Assembly: GCA_022823605.1 (NCBI GenBank)
Contig: JAJEHS010000006.1
Location: 1 to 64,000, forward strand
Reading direction: 5' to 3'
DNA: 64,000 nt
DNA from: Paracoccaceae bacterium
GTDB taxonomy: Bacteria > Pseudomonadota > Alphaproteobacteria > Rhodobacterales > Rhodobacteraceae
Shown here piece by piece: positions 20,586 to 28,641 of this stretch. The notes below the pieces were generated by a model, which worked only from the letters and a program-made list of their open reading frames with translations, ran no database searches and had not been told where the DNA came from. The stretch's first letter is position 1. The number at the start of each line of letters is the position of its first letter. The translations under genes were made by a program, and so were the position numbers.

Positions 20586-22172
20586 ATGATCTGGCCAGCA
20601 TTAAAAAAAAGGTGCAATGAAGCATCCAACCGAAGGATTACATCACTCTTTGAAGTTGAATCCAACCGCCTGGCAAATTTCTCAATCGAATGCAATGGAT
20701 TGTATTTTGATTATTCCAAAACCAATATTGATCTATCTACTCGAAACCTGCTAATCCATTTGGCGAGTTCAAAAAACGTTGGTCAATATCGTGAAAGCAT
20801 GTTTGCCGGCGAACAAATCAATTTTACCGAAAACAGATCAGTTCTTCACACACTTGAACGAAACGCTAAGGGACCGGAAATCCTCATTGATGGCAATGCA
20901 ATAAACAAAAAGGTTCAACAGGCCCAAAACAGATTTTTGTCATTTGCCGAAGCAATCAGGAAAGGGCAGGTACTGGCGAGGAATGGTACCAAATTTACCG
21001 ATGTTATCAATATCGGGATCGGTGGCTCTGATTTGGGCCCCAAAATGGTAACCAAAGCCCTTGCTCCGTATGCTGATGGTCCAAGGATACATTTTCTTTC
21101 AAACATTGATGGTGCCCAGACCTTTGATCTGACAAAAGGACTGGATCCAGAAACAACACTTGTCATTGTTGCTTCCAAGACCTTTACAACTTTGGAAACT
21201 ATGACAAATGCCCTTCAGGTAAAGAATTGGTTGGCCGGTTCCCTTGGGGCTGAAGCAGGTAAACACATGTGCGCCATTTCTAACGCAAGGGAGAAATGTT
21301 TGGAGTGGGACATTCCGGAAGAACGAATATTTACCTTCGGTGAATGGGTTGGTGGTCGATATTCAATTTGGTCTGCGATCGGACTGAGTGCAGCAATTGC
21401 CCTTGGCAAGAATAACTTTGAGCAATTTCATGAAGGTGGTAAGAGTATGGATTGCCATTTTCGAACAGCTCCTGCCCATGCCAATCTACCCATGATGCTA
21501 GCCCTAGTTGGCATATGGCATAATCAGATCTGTGGCTATTCGACTAGAGCCGTAATTCCTTATGAGGAAAGAATGGAATATTTCCCAGACTATCTCCAGC
21601 AGCTTGAAATGGAATCCAATGGAAAGGTTGTCAAATTTGATCAATGCGAAATAGAGTTGCCCTCGGGTCCCGTAATCTGGGGTGGGACAGGCACCAATGG
21701 TCAACATGCATATTTTCAGCATCTTCATCACAGTAATATCATCACCCCGTGTGAATTTTTGGTTGGGGCAATGGGGCATGAGAAAGACCTACAAACCCAC
21801 CATGATTACCTGGTTGCCAATTGTCTTGCACAATCCGAAGCACTCATGTACGGAACAGTGTCTGAAGGAAATCAAAATCTTCCTAAATATCGGTATTTTA
21901 ACGGTAATCGCCCTTCAACCACCTTGTTATATAAAAAGCTAACCCCTCATGTTTTGGGTCAACTGATTGCCTTGTATGAACATCGGGTTTTTGTTGAGGG
22001 TGTGATAATAGGAATTAACAGTTTTGATCAGTGGGGAGTAGAGCTAGGTAAGGGTTTGGCCCAGAAGATTTACCCTTCTATAAATGACAAAAACCGCCAA
22101 GAAAGAGGTTTTAGCAAATCACTTGGGGTACTGATTTCGAAAACTCATTACTTCCAAGAAAATTTCGATTGA
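20586..22172 (+). CDS. pgi: Glucose-6-phosphate isomerase
   Basis: Interconverts glucose 6-phosphate and fructose 6-phosphate. Active-site regions are complete: GIGGSDLGPKMV, SKTFTTLETM, GEWVGGRYSIWSAIGL, TNGQHAYFQHLHH and FDQWGVELGKGLA with the catalytic Lys. At 528 residues it is close to the usual length. The last ~25 residues (after KIYPSIND) diverge from the common ending with DSSTNGLI, and the final 25 bases overlap the end of the convergent DprA-like gene. That is where an island boundary would lie. Identity is certain; the altered tail should not affect catalysis. Confidence 0.95.
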   Translation: MIWPALKKRCNEASNRRITSLFEVESNRLANFSIECNGLYFDYSKTNIDLSTRNLLIHLASSKNVGQYRESMFAGEQINFTENRSVLHTLERNAKGPEILIDGNAINKKVQQAQNRFLSFAEAIRKGQVLARNGTKFTDVINIGIGGSDLGPKMVTKALAPYADGPRIHFLSNIDGAQTFDLTKGLDPETTLVIVASKTFTTLETMTNALQVKNWLAGSLGAEAGKHMCAISNAREKCLEWDIPEERIFTFGEWVGGRYSIWSAIGLSAAIALGKNNFEQFHEGGKSMDCHFRTAPAHANLPMMLALVGIWHNQICGYSTRAVIPYEERMEYFPDYLQQLEMESNGKVVKFDQCEIELPSGPVIWGGTGTNGQHAYFQHLHHSNIITPCEFLVGAMGHEKDLQTHHDYLVANCLAQSEALMYGTVSEGNQNLPKYRYFNGNRPSTTLLYKKLTPHVLGQLIALYEHRVFVEGVIIGINSFDQWGVELGKGLAQKIYPSINDKNRQERGFSKSLGVLISKTHYFQENFD

Positions 22173-23518
22173 TACCGTACTGGCCTATTTAACTTTTCAA
22201 TATTGCCTTCTTCAACACCTCGATTTAGCCATACTCTAACCTGTTTGGGAAGCAGGCCTAATTGTTTGACTATATCTTTGATCTGGAGGGGAGTATCACT
22301 TGTCAATCGGTTTAGTTTGTCAAGAAAAAGCTTGAATGGATCAAGCTTAAAATCAACGCAATTAAGTTCGTTGCTTGTGGACACATTAAATAATGATACT
22401 GATTGTAACTCATATCTTACAGGATTAATTCTCTTTTTAAAAACTTCATCTTTTTCACCTCGCTTCAACCATTCATGAATCTGATCAGGGTGTAATTTAA
22501 AATCAGCCTCTATCTTTACCCTTTCTAGCGGTTCTTCTTGAAGGCGTTTCAATATTTTCTTGAGGAATAATTCATAGAAATCCGGTTCTGAATATTCGCT
22601 AGAATCAATTTTCATGAGGTCCTTAATTGAGGAAAGGTTATTCGGAAGCCATACAGCACCCATTTCTAACAAATCCAAATTCCCTGTTTTCTTGAATTCC
22701 TTTTTTTGAACCCATACAGGTATCCATTTGGATTTTAATCCCTCGATAGCACCTGCCCAAGTTCCCCCTTTTCCAGAAGTACTATTCACTACTATTGCTG
22801 CATCAGCCAGACAATAAATATATTTATTTCTGGCCATAGCATTGCCAACATTGAAACCAGATTCTGGATTAAATGGGCTTGTCAATACTAGATCACCTGA
22901 AAGTAAATACTCTCGATACTTCCTTGATAAAGCAGAACGAAGTAAATCGTTTGCAATCACTCCAATTGCCGTACCTTCATTTTCAAGAGTTTCAAGCATT
23001 GCCCCTTCATCAACACCTCTGGCCCCGCCGGAAACAATGGAGTACCCCTGTCTTGCAGCCTCATATCCTAAGACTTTAGTCAAATCCAAATCTTCCTGGT
23101 CTGCATTACGAGACCCCACAACGGCAATTCCACCTTTATTCAAAAGGTTCTGATTCCCATAACCAAAAAGAATAGGGGGAGCTTTGGTACCCAATCGGCG
23201 AATTAATCTAGCAGGATAATCATTGTCTGATTGAGAAATGATCCATAGTCCAGACCTCTGCCACTTTTCAAGTGCAAATCCAAGTGCACCACCCCGGTCC
23301 AATAGGGATTTTATTCTATGATGATCTATTTCGGCCTTTTTCCATTGGCAAGGTAAATACTTTGGATCTTCTTGCAATAATATTGAAGGCGGGAGTTTGT
23401 TTTCTTTCAATTGTTTAGATAAATTTGACCATTCATTAATAGTGAGGGGTTTCTCCTGCTGTTTACCAAACCTTACCGTGAGCAGAATTGTTGCATGAGT
23501 GTCTGAGCTAATATTCAT
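22148..23518 (-). CDS. DprA-like Rossmann-fold protein with duplicated C-terminal module
   Basis: A 456-residue DprA/Smf-type protein. The Rossmann core shows IAVVGSRNA, SIVSGGARGVDEGAM and NAMARNKYIYCLADAAIVV, the sites DprA uses for nucleotide/ssDNA contact, plus TSGKGGTWAGAIEGL. The C-terminus carries two copies of a ~57-residue module (about 317-373 and 397-456), each with a Q-x-WL-x-RG core and ending in PVRY. These resemble the winged-helix tail of DprA. It starts one base after the stop of the RecQ-PRTase gene with AGAGGA upstream, so it is coupled to it. A housekeeping dprA role in transformation is possible, but the partner gene suggests a defence or conflict role. Confidence 0.85.
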   Translation of the reverse strand: MNISSDTHATILLTVRFGKQQEKPLTINEWSNLSKQLKENKLPPSILLQEDPKYLPCQWKKAEIDHHRIKSLLDRGGALGFALEKWQRSGLWIISQSDNDYPARLIRRLGTKAPPILFGYGNQNLLNKGGIAVVGSRNADQEDLDLTKVLGYEAARQGYSIVSGGARGVDEGAMLETLENEGTAIGVIANDLLRSALSRKYREYLLSGDLVLTSPFNPESGFNVGNAMARNKYIYCLADAAIVVNSTSGKGGTWAGAIEGLKSKWIPVWVQKKEFKKTGNLDLLEMGAVWLPNNLSSIKDLMKIDSSEYSEPDFYELFLKKILKRLQEEPLERVKIEADFKLHPDQIHEWLKRGEKDEVFKKRINPVRYELQSVSLFNVSTSNELNCVDFKLDPFKLFLDKLNRLTSDTPLQIKDIVKQLGLLPKQVRVWLNRGVEEGNIEKLNRPVRYQSKFSWK

Positions 23519-23519
23519 A

Positions 23520-25622
23520 TCATCCTCTACCCTTAGAAGTAGCTAGTGCAAGTGGCCAAACTGGTCCACTTCCTGCCCTCCGGAGCAATGCAGCTGCTAT
23601 AGTCATAGTCCACCCTGAATCGATTACATCATCAATTAACAGTACCGCCTCTTTTGATATTGGGGTTTTTATTTCAAACACACCATCCAAATTACTACAT
23701 TGGTGGTAACTGTTTTCTTGAACTTTTTGTGGCTGATTATCTTTCACTTTAATTATGACTGGACTAAAGGGCAAACCGAGTTTTTTTGAAAGACGCTCTG
23801 CAAATCCCGCGACCAATCTTGGTTTCGAATTTGAAGGTATACAAGTTATCCATTTTGGTGCCGGTTGTGGTTGCCATCTACGATATAAGTTAACTACTGC
23901 TTCTACAAGCTTGTCACTATACCACATCTCGTGCTTTCCTTGAAGGACAGAAGTTCCCCATCCTGCGTCTCCCCAAAAGGATAGAATCTTTCCTGCTTGT
24001 GCTTGCTGTGAGATAGAAAATTTCCCCTCGAAACCATAGCTTGGAAAGGCATCAGAAGGTATCCTTCTTTTACTTTTGAGAGGTATCTCTGTAGCAGTTA
24101 AAAATCTCGTTGCACTGGCAAAAAATTCAACATTTTCACTAGGTTGGAATCTTGGTTTGCCGATACATGAACCACATTTACCACATTTGGTCTGTAATTC
24201 GTCGTCTAAGGCCTTTACCAAAAACTCCATCAAGCAACCTTGATGTTTACCATAACTTTGAATTTCTGACCATTCAACTTCTCGCTGATTATTCAGCCAT
24301 TGAATTTTTTCATGATCCATTTGGAAACTAACAGGTGTTCGATACCATTTAGAATCTGAATATATTACTGGTGAGGGAACCATAACCGAAAGAAAATCTA
24401 GAACACGTTTAATTTGATTGGTTTTAAGATTAATTTCCTTAGTCAAATCAACGGTGCTCATACCATCACCCTTACCAAGCGAATCAATTATTGCTTTAAC
24501 CCAACTATCCTTTGGGAAAGCGTTATTTCGAAAATGTTCATGAATTTCTGCATCCTCATTACCAAACATTAGAATTCCATAAGCATTATCGATCCCACGA
24601 CCCGCTCTGCCAACTTGCTGATAGTAAGAAATTATTGAACCCGGAGCTTGAAAATGAATTACAAAACCAAGATCAGGTTTATCGAACCCCATGCTAAGTG
24701 CGGTAGTTGCAACGAGTGCTTTGATTTTGTTGTTGAGTAATTGTCCCTCCAAATCACTTCTATATTGATTTGAATTTCGTCCATCAACACTTTCTACACC
24801 ACTGTAATATGCATAGGCTGATATCCCTTGTTCTTGTAACCAAGTAGAAAGGTTTTCTGCATCTCTTTTCGTTAGTGTATAGATAATTCCAGAACCTGGA
24901 ATAGATCTAATATTCTCAGCAAGCCAAGCCATTCTTGATGCTTGGGATGGTAAATTAAGATTTTGTAACGCAAGTGAATGACGAATTAAAGGGCCTCTTC
25001 GAACCTGAACAAAACCAAGTTGTTCTTTTATGTCCTCTATCACACGTGTATTTGCTGTTGCGGTTGTACCAAGAATCCTTACATTTACGGGCATTTGTCG
25101 CAAAACATTCACTATTTTCCTGTAATTAGGGCGAAAATCGTGCCCCCAGTCAGAGATACAATGGGCTTCATCAACAACAAACAAACCAATATTATCTGTG
25201 ATTTGCGACAAGACTTTTTCAACAAATTCGTTGTTGGAAAGACGTTCGGGGGAGATAAGGACCACATCAACCTTATCTTCAAATATTTTTTCCTCAATTT
25301 GAGACCAATTTTGAGAGTTGGTCGAATTGATTGAAACCGCATTGATACCGTATCTTTTGGCTGTCATAATCTGATTTCGCATCAGTGCAAGCAAAGGTGA
25401 AATAATTAGTGTGGGACCATACCTGTTATCGCGTAGAATTCTAGTAGCAAGAAAGTATACTGTGCTTTTGCCCCAGCCTGTTCGTTGGACTACAAGAGTC
25501 CGTTCCCTTCTGTTGATTATGGCATCAATCGCTTCCCATTGACCTTGACGAAACTCAACATGGTTGTTACCCTCAGCCTTCCTGAGCAGCACAAGGGCAG
25601 AGTGTCTGTCTGTTAATCCCAT
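23520..25622 (-). CDS. RecQ-type helicase fused to a phosphoribosyltransferase domain
   Basis: A 700-residue fusion. Residues 20-370 are a RecQ helicase: Walker A TGWGKST (48-54), DEAHCISDWGHDFRP (151-165), GTTATA, and motif VI QVGRAGRG (336-343). A RecQ-like zinc site follows (HQGC, then CGKCGSC). The last ~150 residues are a type I phosphoribosyltransferase-like domain with the PRPP loop LLIDDVIDSGWT (661-672), resembling ComF-type domains. The RQC/HRDC DNA-binding domains of standard RecQ are replaced. ATG 25622 has GAGG six bases upstream. It heads a two-gene unit with the DprA-like gene. Function is unproven; nucleic-acid unwinding coupled to nucleotide or base chemistry is inferred. Confidence 0.9.
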   Translation of the reverse strand: MGLTDRHSALVLLRKAEGNNHVEFRQGQWEAIDAIINRRERTLVVQRTGWGKSTVYFLATRILRDNRYGPTLIISPLLALMRNQIMTAKRYGINAVSINSTNSQNWSQIEEKIFEDKVDVVLISPERLSNNEFVEKVLSQITDNIGLFVVDEAHCISDWGHDFRPNYRKIVNVLRQMPVNVRILGTTATANTRVIEDIKEQLGFVQVRRGPLIRHSLALQNLNLPSQASRMAWLAENIRSIPGSGIIYTLTKRDAENLSTWLQEQGISAYAYYSGVESVDGRNSNQYRSDLEGQLLNNKIKALVATTALSMGFDKPDLGFVIHFQAPGSIISYYQQVGRAGRGIDNAYGILMFGNEDAEIHEHFRNNAFPKDSWVKAIIDSLGKGDGMSTVDLTKEINLKTNQIKRVLDFLSVMVPSPVIYSDSKWYRTPVSFQMDHEKIQWLNNQREVEWSEIQSYGKHQGCLMEFLVKALDDELQTKCGKCGSCIGKPRFQPSENVEFFASATRFLTATEIPLKSKRRIPSDAFPSYGFEGKFSISQQAQAGKILSFWGDAGWGTSVLQGKHEMWYSDKLVEAVVNLYRRWQPQPAPKWITCIPSNSKPRLVAGFAERLSKKLGLPFSPVIIKVKDNQPQKVQENSYHQCSNLDGVFEIKTPISKEAVLLIDDVIDSGWTMTIAAALLRRAGSGPVWPLALATSKGRG

Positions 25623-25649
25623 TAATACCTCAATTTATCGAATAGTTTA

Positions 25650-25722
25650 CTATTGGGTAACAATAGGCATTAAAAAAACAAAAAGCACCTTTGTTTTCTG
25701 CAGAAATGTTTTTAGTATACTA
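25650..25722. promoter_or_regulatory. Palindrome cluster between the divergent RecQ-PRTase and HTH genes
   Basis: Three inverted repeats lie in the 191-base divergent gap: CTATTG/CAATAG with a five-base loop (25650-25666), the perfect 12-base TTTCTGCAGAAA (25695-25706), and the perfect 10-base TAGTATACTA (25713-25722), which contains a TATACT -10-like hexamer. Such sites are good operator candidates for the neighbouring helix-turn-helix protein. Binding is an inference. Confidence 0.45.
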
Positions 25723-25768
25723 CTGCCGATAACACACTCGAGCGCTAGTCAAGGATGTTAAATAGAAC

Positions 25769-25796
25769 TTGACAAACTGAACAAATATATTAAGCT
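25769..25796 (+). promoter_or_regulatory. Candidate promoter for the HTH regulator gene
   Basis: A consensus -35 TTGACA (25769-25774) is followed after 16 bases by TAAGCT (25791-25796), a poor -10. Transcription would start within about 10-15 bases of the ATG at 25814, giving a very short leader. The perfect -35 is the main support. Confidence 0.4.
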
Positions 25797-25813
25797 TATG
25801 TTCAGGTCCAAAA

Positions 25814-26380
25814 ATGGAAAATGATATGTTAGAAACAGTATTAAATCCTGAACAAGAATCTTTCCAAATCAAAGGTCTCAGAGGAATTTCACGCTCCGCC
25901 AAAAATTTTCTGCAACTGCATCCAAAGCATGCTGAGTTAGTTGTCAAGATTGCACTGGAAACTGCTGCCAGTTTACAAAGTGATTTTACTGCTGATGATG
26001 ATGTTCCCGATGCGTTGAAACCATATGTACTCGTGGAACATTATGACAAAGATATTATCGGTGTTACTGAAGCTTCAAAACGCTTGAGGGTCTCACGGAC
26101 AACTGTTTATGATTGGATCAACAAAGGCTTGTTACTCTCTTGGAATAAAACGAAAAGAGGGAAAAGGATTCCAGCTGAGCAAATCCTTGGGGAAGGTCAA
26201 ATAATTAAGGGGATTGATAAAGTAACCAAGATTGTTGGAAATCCAATTAATACTTGGGTATACCTGTCTAACAAGATGTCTTTTTCAGATTGTTTTGCTC
26301 GCCCTATTGACTTGCTGAAAGAAGGTAGAGTTGAAGAAGTTCTAGGTTTAGCAGCAGGATATGGCTCAATCCCTACATAA
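25814..26380 (+). CDS. Helix-turn-helix protein with MbcA/ParS-like C-terminal tail
   Basis: A 188-residue protein. Residues 81-110 contain an excisionase/MerR-type helix-turn-helix (GVTEASKRLRVSRTTVYDWI) followed by a basic wing (KTKRGKRIP). The C-terminus (about 140-188, NTWVYLSN, then PIDLLKEGRVEEVLGLA) resembles the DUF2384/MbcA-ParS-Xre toxin-binding domain. Proteins of that class are usually antitoxins paired with RES or similar toxins, yet no small toxin gene adjoins. It is divergent from the RecQ-PRTase/DprA unit, which suggests autoregulation and control of that unit. Domain calls are by eye. Confidence 0.8.
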   Translation: MENDMLETVLNPEQESFQIKGLRGISRSAKNFLQLHPKHAELVVKIALETAASLQSDFTADDDVPDALKPYVLVEHYDKDIIGVTEASKRLRVSRTTVYDWINKGLLLSWNKTKRGKRIPAEQILGEGQIIKGIDKVTKIVGNPINTWVYLSNKMSFSDCFARPIDLLKEGRVEEVLGLAAGYGSIPT

Positions 26381-26601
26381 CAGTATGAGTGTTTAAACCA
26401 AACTTCGGATTAAAACACTTCTGCAAAGTAGAACGCTTCCTCCCAGTTATCGAATCATTCCCTCAAAGTATGAAAATACACCTTTGGGTACCATTCCAGC
26501 CAATTCTAGATTTTGCACCTACAATTCTAATTTTTCGATCTTATATGCAGCATCCGACTTCTCCACCGCATTTATTGAAGATTTCACCTTATGAAATCGA
26601 T

Positions 26602-28641
26602 CTACCGATTTCTTTGCCTTCTTTGTCTTCTTTTACCAGACCCTGCCAAATGACTGTTTCCAGGTAGATTAACTATTCTGCTTAACTCTGGAAAATCATC
26701 CACGGCATGGGGAATTGCGTTCGCGTTGACAAAATGTTCCTGGAATTTGGGCTCAACTGCTGTTTCGATCTTTTCAATCTGGAAAACGGTCTTTTCAATT
26801 TCCCTTCTCGCTTCAAGATTACACAATCCGATTCTGGCACCCGTACCAGCAGCATTACCGGATGAAAAAACCTTGTCCAGTTGACAATCGGGAATCATTC
26901 CTAATACCATCGCATGCTTGGTAGAGATATGTGAACCAAAAGCACCGGCCAGAACAATGCGATCAACCTTGTCGGTTCCAAATTTTTCAATCAATAACTT
27001 AGCCCCTGCATAAAGTGCAGACTTGGCAAGTTGTATTGCGCGGACATCATTCTGGGTTACCATTATGGGGGGAGCACCAGTATCAGTATCCTCATAAAGG
27101 ACATATGAATAGGTTCTGCCATCCGCGACTATAAGGTTGGAGCCCGATGCTTCAGGTGAACCGATCAGACCGGAATTGTCGATTATTCCTGCCATGCGCA
27201 TCTCGGCAATCGCCTCGATAATACCTGATCCACAAATGCCATTGACACCCGTGTTCAGTATAATATCTTGAAAACCTTCCTCATCTGACCACAAATCACT
27301 TCCAATAACCCGAAAACGGGGTACTTTGGTCTCAGGATCAATGGAAACCCTTTCAATTGACCCGGGCGATGCTCTTTGGCCGGAAGATATTTGCGCACCT
27401 TCAAATGCCGGGCCGGTCGGAGAAGAACAAGCCAAAACCCGTGTTTTGTCGCCAAATATGATTTCGGCATTGGTTCCAACATCCACTACCAGTACCTTGT
27501 CATCTGATTTTTGTGGTTCCTCAGACAGAATTACTCCCGCAGCATCAGCGCCGACGTGACCAGCAACGCAAGGGAACAGGTAAATGGGAGTAGAATATTC
27601 CAGTGAATCTAGGTTAAGATCCGAGGCAATGAGGTTCAAGGAGGAGGATACAGCCAAGGCAAATGGCGCTTGCCCCAGTTCTATAGGATCAATCCCGAGT
27701 AAAAGGTGATGCATGACAGGATTACATACAATGACTACGTCCAAAACAGAATTTAAGGAGACATTGTTGTTTTCGGCGATGGTCCCGAATACGGTATTCA
27801 AGCCTTCACGAACGGCTTCGGTTAGTTCCTTGTCACCTCCGGCATTCATCATCGAGTAGGATACACGGCTCATCAGGTCTTCTCCAAACCTGATTTGAGG
27901 GTTCATAATACCTGCCGAATCCAGTACTGATCCATCCCTTAGATTACATAGATGTACAGCAATTGTGGTTGAACCCAGATCAATGGCAAGGCCAAATACA
28001 GGATCCTCATGAAACCCGCTCCATAACCTTGTTATTTTTAACTCCCCATTGTGATGATTCTCCCAAATTGCAAGGGTTATCCTGAAATCATCCTTTCTGA
28101 GAATTTGCTGGAGAATTCTTAACTGACTTGTGCAAATACCCACATTGTCGATATCCCATTGTTCCTTCAATGCCTTCCGAACCCTTTCGAGGTCACCTTC
28201 AGGTTTATGCATGTCAGGTTTTTGAACCTCAACATAAAACAGACGGGTTGAAGGATCCATGATTACAGGGCGTGCATCCGCAGCCTTTCTTACAACCTGC
28301 TTGTGTACTTGGGATTCCGGTGGCACATCAACGATTATATCAGCCAGGATTTGAGCCTGACATCCCAAACGCCGACCGGTCTTCAATCCTCTGACCCGAT
28401 CATATCTTTCTTCAATGGCATTCCATTCTGATAGTGATTTCTCGGATGATTCAATCTGGTACTTTGGAAAGGAACCGTATGAAGGTATAATCTGGCATCT
28501 TGAACAAATACCCCGCCCTCCGCAAACACTATCCAGATCAACACCCAGCTTTCTGGCTGCCTGCAAAACGGGTGTTCCTACCGGAAATCTTCCCCTTTTT
28601 CCTGAAGGAGAAAAAACTATCAAGGGATCTAGGCTGGTCAC
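26602..28641 (-). CDS. RACo-like corrinoid-protein reactivase (2Fe-2S ferredoxin + ASKHA ATPase)
   Basis: ATP-driven reductive activator of corrinoid methyl-transfer proteins (RACo/RamA type, DUF4445). The N-terminal [2Fe-2S] domain has C40, C46, C49 (CGGRGICSRC) and C94 (RLGCQAQ). From ~217 the ASKHA fold shows AIDLGSTTIAVHL, VVDVGTNAEIIFG, SSPTGPAFEG and LAGAFGSH. It ends in a basic KRRQRRQRNR tail. The length of 679 fits. It is the last gene of a minus-strand operon with the methyltransferase, MetF and a small conserved protein. In Rhodobacterales such a protein is reported to keep a split B12-dependent methionine synthase active; this assignment is from memory. Confidence 0.9.
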   Translation of the reverse strand: MTSLDPLIVFSPSGKRGRFPVGTPVLQAARKLGVDLDSVCGGRGICSRCQIIPSYGSFPKYQIESSEKSLSEWNAIEERYDRVRGLKTGRRLGCQAQILADIIVDVPPESQVHKQVVRKAADARPVIMDPSTRLFYVEVQKPDMHKPEGDLERVRKALKEQWDIDNVGICTSQLRILQQILRKDDFRITLAIWENHHNGELKITRLWSGFHEDPVFGLAIDLGSTTIAVHLCNLRDGSVLDSAGIMNPQIRFGEDLMSRVSYSMMNAGGDKELTEAVREGLNTVFGTIAENNNVSLNSVLDVVIVCNPVMHHLLLGIDPIELGQAPFALAVSSSLNLIASDLNLDSLEYSTPIYLFPCVAGHVGADAAGVILSEEPQKSDDKVLVVDVGTNAEIIFGDKTRVLACSSPTGPAFEGAQISSGQRASPGSIERVSIDPETKVPRFRVIGSDLWSDEEGFQDIILNTGVNGICGSGIIEAIAEMRMAGIIDNSGLIGSPEASGSNLIVADGRTYSYVLYEDTDTGAPPIMVTQNDVRAIQLAKSALYAGAKLLIEKFGTDKVDRIVLAGAFGSHISTKHAMVLGMIPDCQLDKVFSSGNAAGTGARIGLCNLEARREIEKTVFQIEKIETAVEPKFQEHFVNANAIPHAVDDFPELSRIVNLPGNSHLAGSGKRRQRRQRNR

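Follow-up and report, generated by a model that had tools for sequence, protein, structure and literature searches.

The window analyzed here is a 64,000-nucleotide stretch of the genome of a Paracoccaceae bacterium (the source genome, G000), in which a 4.4-kb insert lies between pgi and a gene for a RACo-type protein on the one-carbon operon side (Table 1). The insert carries a RecQ-like helicase gene, a DprA-like gene, and a divergent HTH gene, the last separated from the helicase gene by 191 bp. The DprA-like gene starts one base past the stop codon of the helicase gene, an initial observation that the ORF coordinates and a Pfam DNA_processg_A match (E = 5e-34) bear out, and its 3' end overlaps that of pgi tail to tail by 25 bp. 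The GC content of the insert is 0.39 versus 0.426 for the whole window, and no transposase, integrase, or edge repeats were seen at its edges. A PADLOC scan of 50 window ORFs recovered no other defense systems; we read its SspA/DndA matches as housekeeping cysteine desulfurases, and its DpdF-model matches all come from the helicase protein alone.

Table 1. Features of the insert and its flanks (window coordinates)
Feature	Position	Strand	Description
pgi	20586-22172	+	flank of insert
psyrA / rqlI	22148-23518	-	456 aa; DprA-like (SLOG fold), C-terminal HTH domain
Tandem duplicate of ~58-aa PsyrA C-terminal HTH domain	22165-22587	-	from local alignment
Insert at pgi/RACo junction	22173-26601		4.4 kb
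psyrT / rqlH	23520-25622	-	700 aa; RecQ-like helicase fused to C-terminal PRTase
HTH antitoxin gene	25814-26380	+	188 aa; HTH_17; RES-type TA, separate from PsyrTA
RES toxin gene remnant	26409-26579	+	57-aa tblastn match
RACo-type protein gene	26602-28641	-	other flank, one-carbon operon side

The helicase and DprA-like genes are a PsyrTA (RqlH-RqlI) pair

Among PADLOC families, the helicase protein is matched best by PsyrT (E = 5.2e-284, 942 bits; amino acids 6 to 697 on profile positions 5 to 685 of 689) and the DprA-like protein by PsyrA (E = 6.1e-148, 491 bits; amino acids 1 to 371 on positions 1 to 396 of 398). The runner-up for the helicase protein, DpdF, the helicase of the Dpd system, falls far below PsyrT at 281 bits, as does ShosA below PsyrA (84.6 bits, E = 1.8e-24). 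With NCBIfam models, PsyrA fails the dprA equivalog cutoff (84.9 versus 191 bits) and PsyrT fails that of recQ (274 versus 640 bits), while PsyrT passes the broader recQ_fam subfamily (248 versus a cutoff of 219.8). An E. coli plasmid protein, whose gene is followed by a DprA gene, is 53.7% identical to the window's PsyrT over 99% of its length, and the rqlH-rqlI order and 1-bp gap of the window match the known operon. PsyrTA of P. syringae reportedly goes back to Sberro 2013.

The initial annotation had presented the combination as uncharacterized. Since RqlH-RqlI/PsyrTA has already been characterized in the literature, the pair is instead an ordinary, well-formed copy of a described family and not a new candidate system. 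The sequence shows which family it belongs to, that its domains and motifs are intact, how its genes are ordered, that it was acquired horizontally, and that its relatives occur in a defense setting. It shares with known PsyrTA/RqlH-RqlI pairs both proteins over almost their whole length, the gene order and junction, the helicase and PRTase motifs, a DprA-like antitoxin with a C-terminal HTH, and a patchy horizontal spread, but differs in a second C-terminal HTH copy in PsyrA and in sitting alone amid housekeeping genes, adjoining a decayed RES-type toxin-antitoxin (TA) pair. ShosTA likewise combines a PRTase toxin with a DprA-like antitoxin but its description names a DprA alongside a PRTase and no helicase (PMC9122126).

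Domains and motifs of PsyrT and PsyrA

Pfam assigns DEAD, Helicase_C, and Pribosyltran (606-684) domains to PsyrT, in agreement with the initial view of a RecQ helicase with a C-terminal PRPP-loop domain. The PRTase domain covers amino acids ~606 to 694, with the PRPP loop LLIDDVIDSGWT from amino acid 661, and the helicase part displays Walker A (GWGKS, amino acid 49), DEAH (151), QVGRAGR (336), and a Zn-type Cys cluster (480). Helicase motifs and PRPP loop are kept in nearly all of 24 aligned PsyrT homologs; the PRPP loop of L082 is degenerate, and the Zn-type Cys cluster is absent from four alphaproteobacterial-type copies. Residues K49, D148, and D663 of RqlH from ExPEC, which have been probed with mutants (PMC4670107), correspond to the conserved K52, D151, and D668 in the window. 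Separately, we observe a RecQ-like helicase ORF of ~1,720 amino acids in five congeners (G002, G004, G005, G006, and G008) that is missing from the source genome.

In PsyrA, the DprA domain (86-288) contains the motifs GSR at amino acid 135 and SGGARGVD at 163. A predicted model with a mean pLDDT of 79.6 finds its structural matches in ShosA of E. coli (8zva) and DprA of the pneumococcus (3uqz), and the DprA/ShosA fold is also obtained from a profile search. The C-terminal HTH domain of ~58 amino acids occurs twice, at 312 to 370 and 393 to 450, with a local alignment score of 90 (best of 500 shuffles, 49), whereas the other 19 aligned PsyrA proteins have a single copy. The first copy is modeled at low confidence, perhaps because it is absent from relatives.

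The divergent HTH gene belongs to a decayed RES-type pair

The HTH gene named in the initial annotation is present, and its product matches Pfam HTH_17, but its place in the cassette is not upheld. Across 60 related genomes its relatives number just two, both in the congener G006, where one copy (45% identical) overlaps an intact Pfam RES toxin gene by 4 bp. Searched against the window with tblastn, the G006 RES protein matches 57 amino acids directly downstream of the HTH gene (52.6% identity, E = 1e-13); the match then runs into a stop and the RACo 3' end, and beyond this remnant no intact RES toxin gene was found downstream of the HTH gene. The adjoining remnant and the RES partner in G006 therefore identify the HTH gene as the orphaned antitoxin from a RES-type TA pair that has decayed, outside the PsyrTA functional unit. 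The C-terminus of its product appears ParS-like, a reading based on the RES neighbor and the sequence itself; the fold model is of low confidence (pLDDT, 63), with Rv2175c as best PDB match (E = 1.2e-3) and MbcA reaching only E = 0.29.

Divergent orientation and a common spacer would also suit a system made up of all three genes, as they were initially grouped, with the HTH protein regulating the helicase pair. We consider this highly unlikely, as a blast of the ORFs of the other PsyrTA loci listed placed the HTH gene beside none of them, the G006 homologs lie at other places, one overlapping its RES gene, and the RES remnant immediately follows the window's HTH gene. A third component was ruled out on these grounds.

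Known biology of the family and proposed mechanism

In ExPEC, RqlH on its own triggers the SOS response and inhibits growth, for which its PRTase domain is required, RqlI binds and restrains RqlH, and helicase-dead RqlH mutants are more toxic (Russell and Mulvey 2015, PMC4670107). The same study describes that rqlH always lies ahead of rqlI where both occur and that Gram-positives commonly have RqlH but no RqlI (PMC4670107); toxicity may thus depend on the host. In shosTA, syrTA, and rqlHI, the antitoxin is a DprA homolog (PMC9122126). PsyrTA as a defense system is credited to Millman 2022 (PMC10121019), and a later paper describes its protection as abortive infection (PMC10855318).

These reports correct the roles first assigned, in which the helicase would sense or unwind foreign or damaged DNA, the DprA-like protein would bind that DNA or a nucleotide signal, and the PRTase would act as effector or nucleotide enzyme. 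In the homolog, the PRTase is genotoxic, the DprA-like protein is a binding antitoxin, and the helicase domain helps to restrain the PRTase (PMC4670107); the PRTase helicase is therefore the toxin and the DprA-like protein the antitoxin.

We regard it as very probable that the two minus-strand genes form a complete, intact-looking PsyrTA (RqlH-RqlI) TA module that works by abortive infection. PsyrT and PsyrA, expressed from a single operon, would associate into a complex in which the DprA-like PsyrA, together with the helicase domain, holds the PRTase domain in check. Disturbance of replication by phage or foreign DNA, or loss of restraint by PsyrA, could then serve as the trigger, upon which the freed PRTase would act on a nucleotide or DNA-associated substrate, leading to DNA stress and a growth arrest that would stop phage spread. 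The operon, the physical interaction, the PRTase-dependent genotoxicity, and the antitoxin role have been demonstrated by others in homologs; for the window's PsyrTA, the toxicity, trigger, substrate, and phage protection are inferred. Counting against this reading are a native E. coli host in which PsyrTA did not detectably protect (PMC12409345), the frequent RqlH of Gram-positives that has no RqlI, and the lack of a further defense system among the window ORFs scanned.

Acquisition at a variable junction and distribution

That the genes were inserted between pgi and the one-carbon genes, as initially proposed, is supported by comparison within the genus. The pgi-RACo junction spans just 13 bp in G006 and 70 bp in G004, and so is near-empty in both, measures about 0.5 kb in G007, and in G000 holds the PsyrTA insert; its cargo reads as a MATE-type exporter in G001 and as 8.5 kb of putative transporter genes in G008, while three genus genomes drop out of the comparison where their contigs end. 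We observe that the cargo of this convergent junction differs between congeners (loci L041, L042, L045, L046, and L047).

PsyrT is found in three of nine genus members (G000, G004, and G007), in the latter two at other sites, and the three copies fall into three separate supported groups of the PsyrT tree, that of the window together with copies from the E. coli plasmid, Zhouia (Bacteroidota), and G453. The genus copies thus represent three separate acquisitions. Given the near-empty junctions in two congeners, the transporters in others, and the copies from three clades, the insert was acquired horizontally. The locus illustrates how such modules arrive, here inserted where two genes converge and the content differs from congener to congener, beside a ruined second TA pair. 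In a phylum-wide draw, 15 of 398 genomes contained PsyrT.

A housekeeping DNA-repair unit, in which PsyrT is the cell's RecQ and the DprA-like partner loads RecA, would accord with PsyrT being the sole protein above the RecQ-family cutoff in the source genome and with the active helicase that is RqlH of M. smegmatis (PMC4670107). It is nevertheless very improbable: PsyrT is missing from six of nine genus members and its genus copies stem from different clades, a separate canonical DprA is encoded at G000:C6, toxicity of the homolog depends on the PRTase (PMC4670107), and the insert is of low GC at a junction near-empty in two congeners. Patchiness, clade mixing, and the separate DprA led us to rule out this reading.

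Phage origin was likewise rejected, PsyrT being absent from phage records, in which partial matches cover the helicase domain only; a pattern-based scan of viral contigs, with a reach of close relatives, did not find PsyrT.

In G007, a serine recombinase adjoins PsyrTA (L048), and three more DprA-family genes lie no farther than about 60 kb from its PsyrA (G007:C1:2870223-2937524), a stretch that is likely a defense region.

Nesting of PsyrTA relatives within RM and BREX operons

We surveyed the neighbors of 27 psyrT-psyrA pairs, the window's included. Seven are nested in larger systems, five in the order hsdS-psyrTA-hsdR of type I restriction-modification (RM) operons (the E. coli plasmid, G790, and three rumen [Kiritimatiellae] loci) and two inside BREX (an Acinetobacter plasmid and G453). 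Two of the three rumen loci are near-identical, and two of the three have a small gene separating hsdS from psyrT. The Zhouia pair is located downstream of hsdM-hsdS. Nesting is a minority arrangement, as only 2 of the 13 pairs from the genome draws are nested. RM-nested loci are L016, L017, L019, L052, and L084; BREX-nested loci are L054 and L071.

The identification of the pair as PsyrTA and the presence of relatives inside type I RM and BREX operons support the defense or DNA-conflict system suggested by the initial annotation. That annotation had named conserved same-site synteny in close relatives, without a link to defense genes, as evidence to the contrary; we find three of nine genus members with copies from different clades at different places, and relatives in RM and BREX operons. 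A tempting finding is thereby settled as an already described defense/TA family.

A selfish TA module kept by addiction, without defense benefit, is a rather unlikely alternative. The TA behavior of the homolog and the lack of fitness loss upon deletion of rqlHI (PMC4670107) would fit it, as would one native E. coli host in which PsyrTA did not detectably protect from the phages used (PMC12409345) and an insert containing a decayed RES TA and no further defense gene. Against it speak the several lineages in which PsyrTA is nested within RM and BREX operons and the reported anti-phage activity of the family (PMC10121019, PMC10855318).

The nested relatives suggest a guard-like role elsewhere. 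A precedent is PrrC in EcoprrI, an RM guardian whose gene is embedded in a locus of type I RM (PMC12707154), as are some PsyrTA relatives; the window copy is not nested, however, and PrrC differs in being an anticodon nuclease. By this analogy, PsyrTA may in several lineages guard the larger systems, from the hsdS/hsdR slot or within BREX, and fire when RM or BREX is inhibited, the solo copy of the window then being a detached guard with another trigger; we offer this tentatively and think it unlikely. Nesting makes the trigger question testable, with RM inhibition as a concrete candidate. No statement of RM/BREX embedding for PsyrTA was found in the open-licence literature, a scope that makes this weak evidence. 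Two small points are new here, namely, the duplicated C-terminal HTH of PsyrA and the placement of relatives inside type I RM or BREX operons. Finally, PsyrT also occurs without an adjacent PsyrA, at L056 (an archaeal Halanaeroarchaeum plasmid), L073, L074, and L082.
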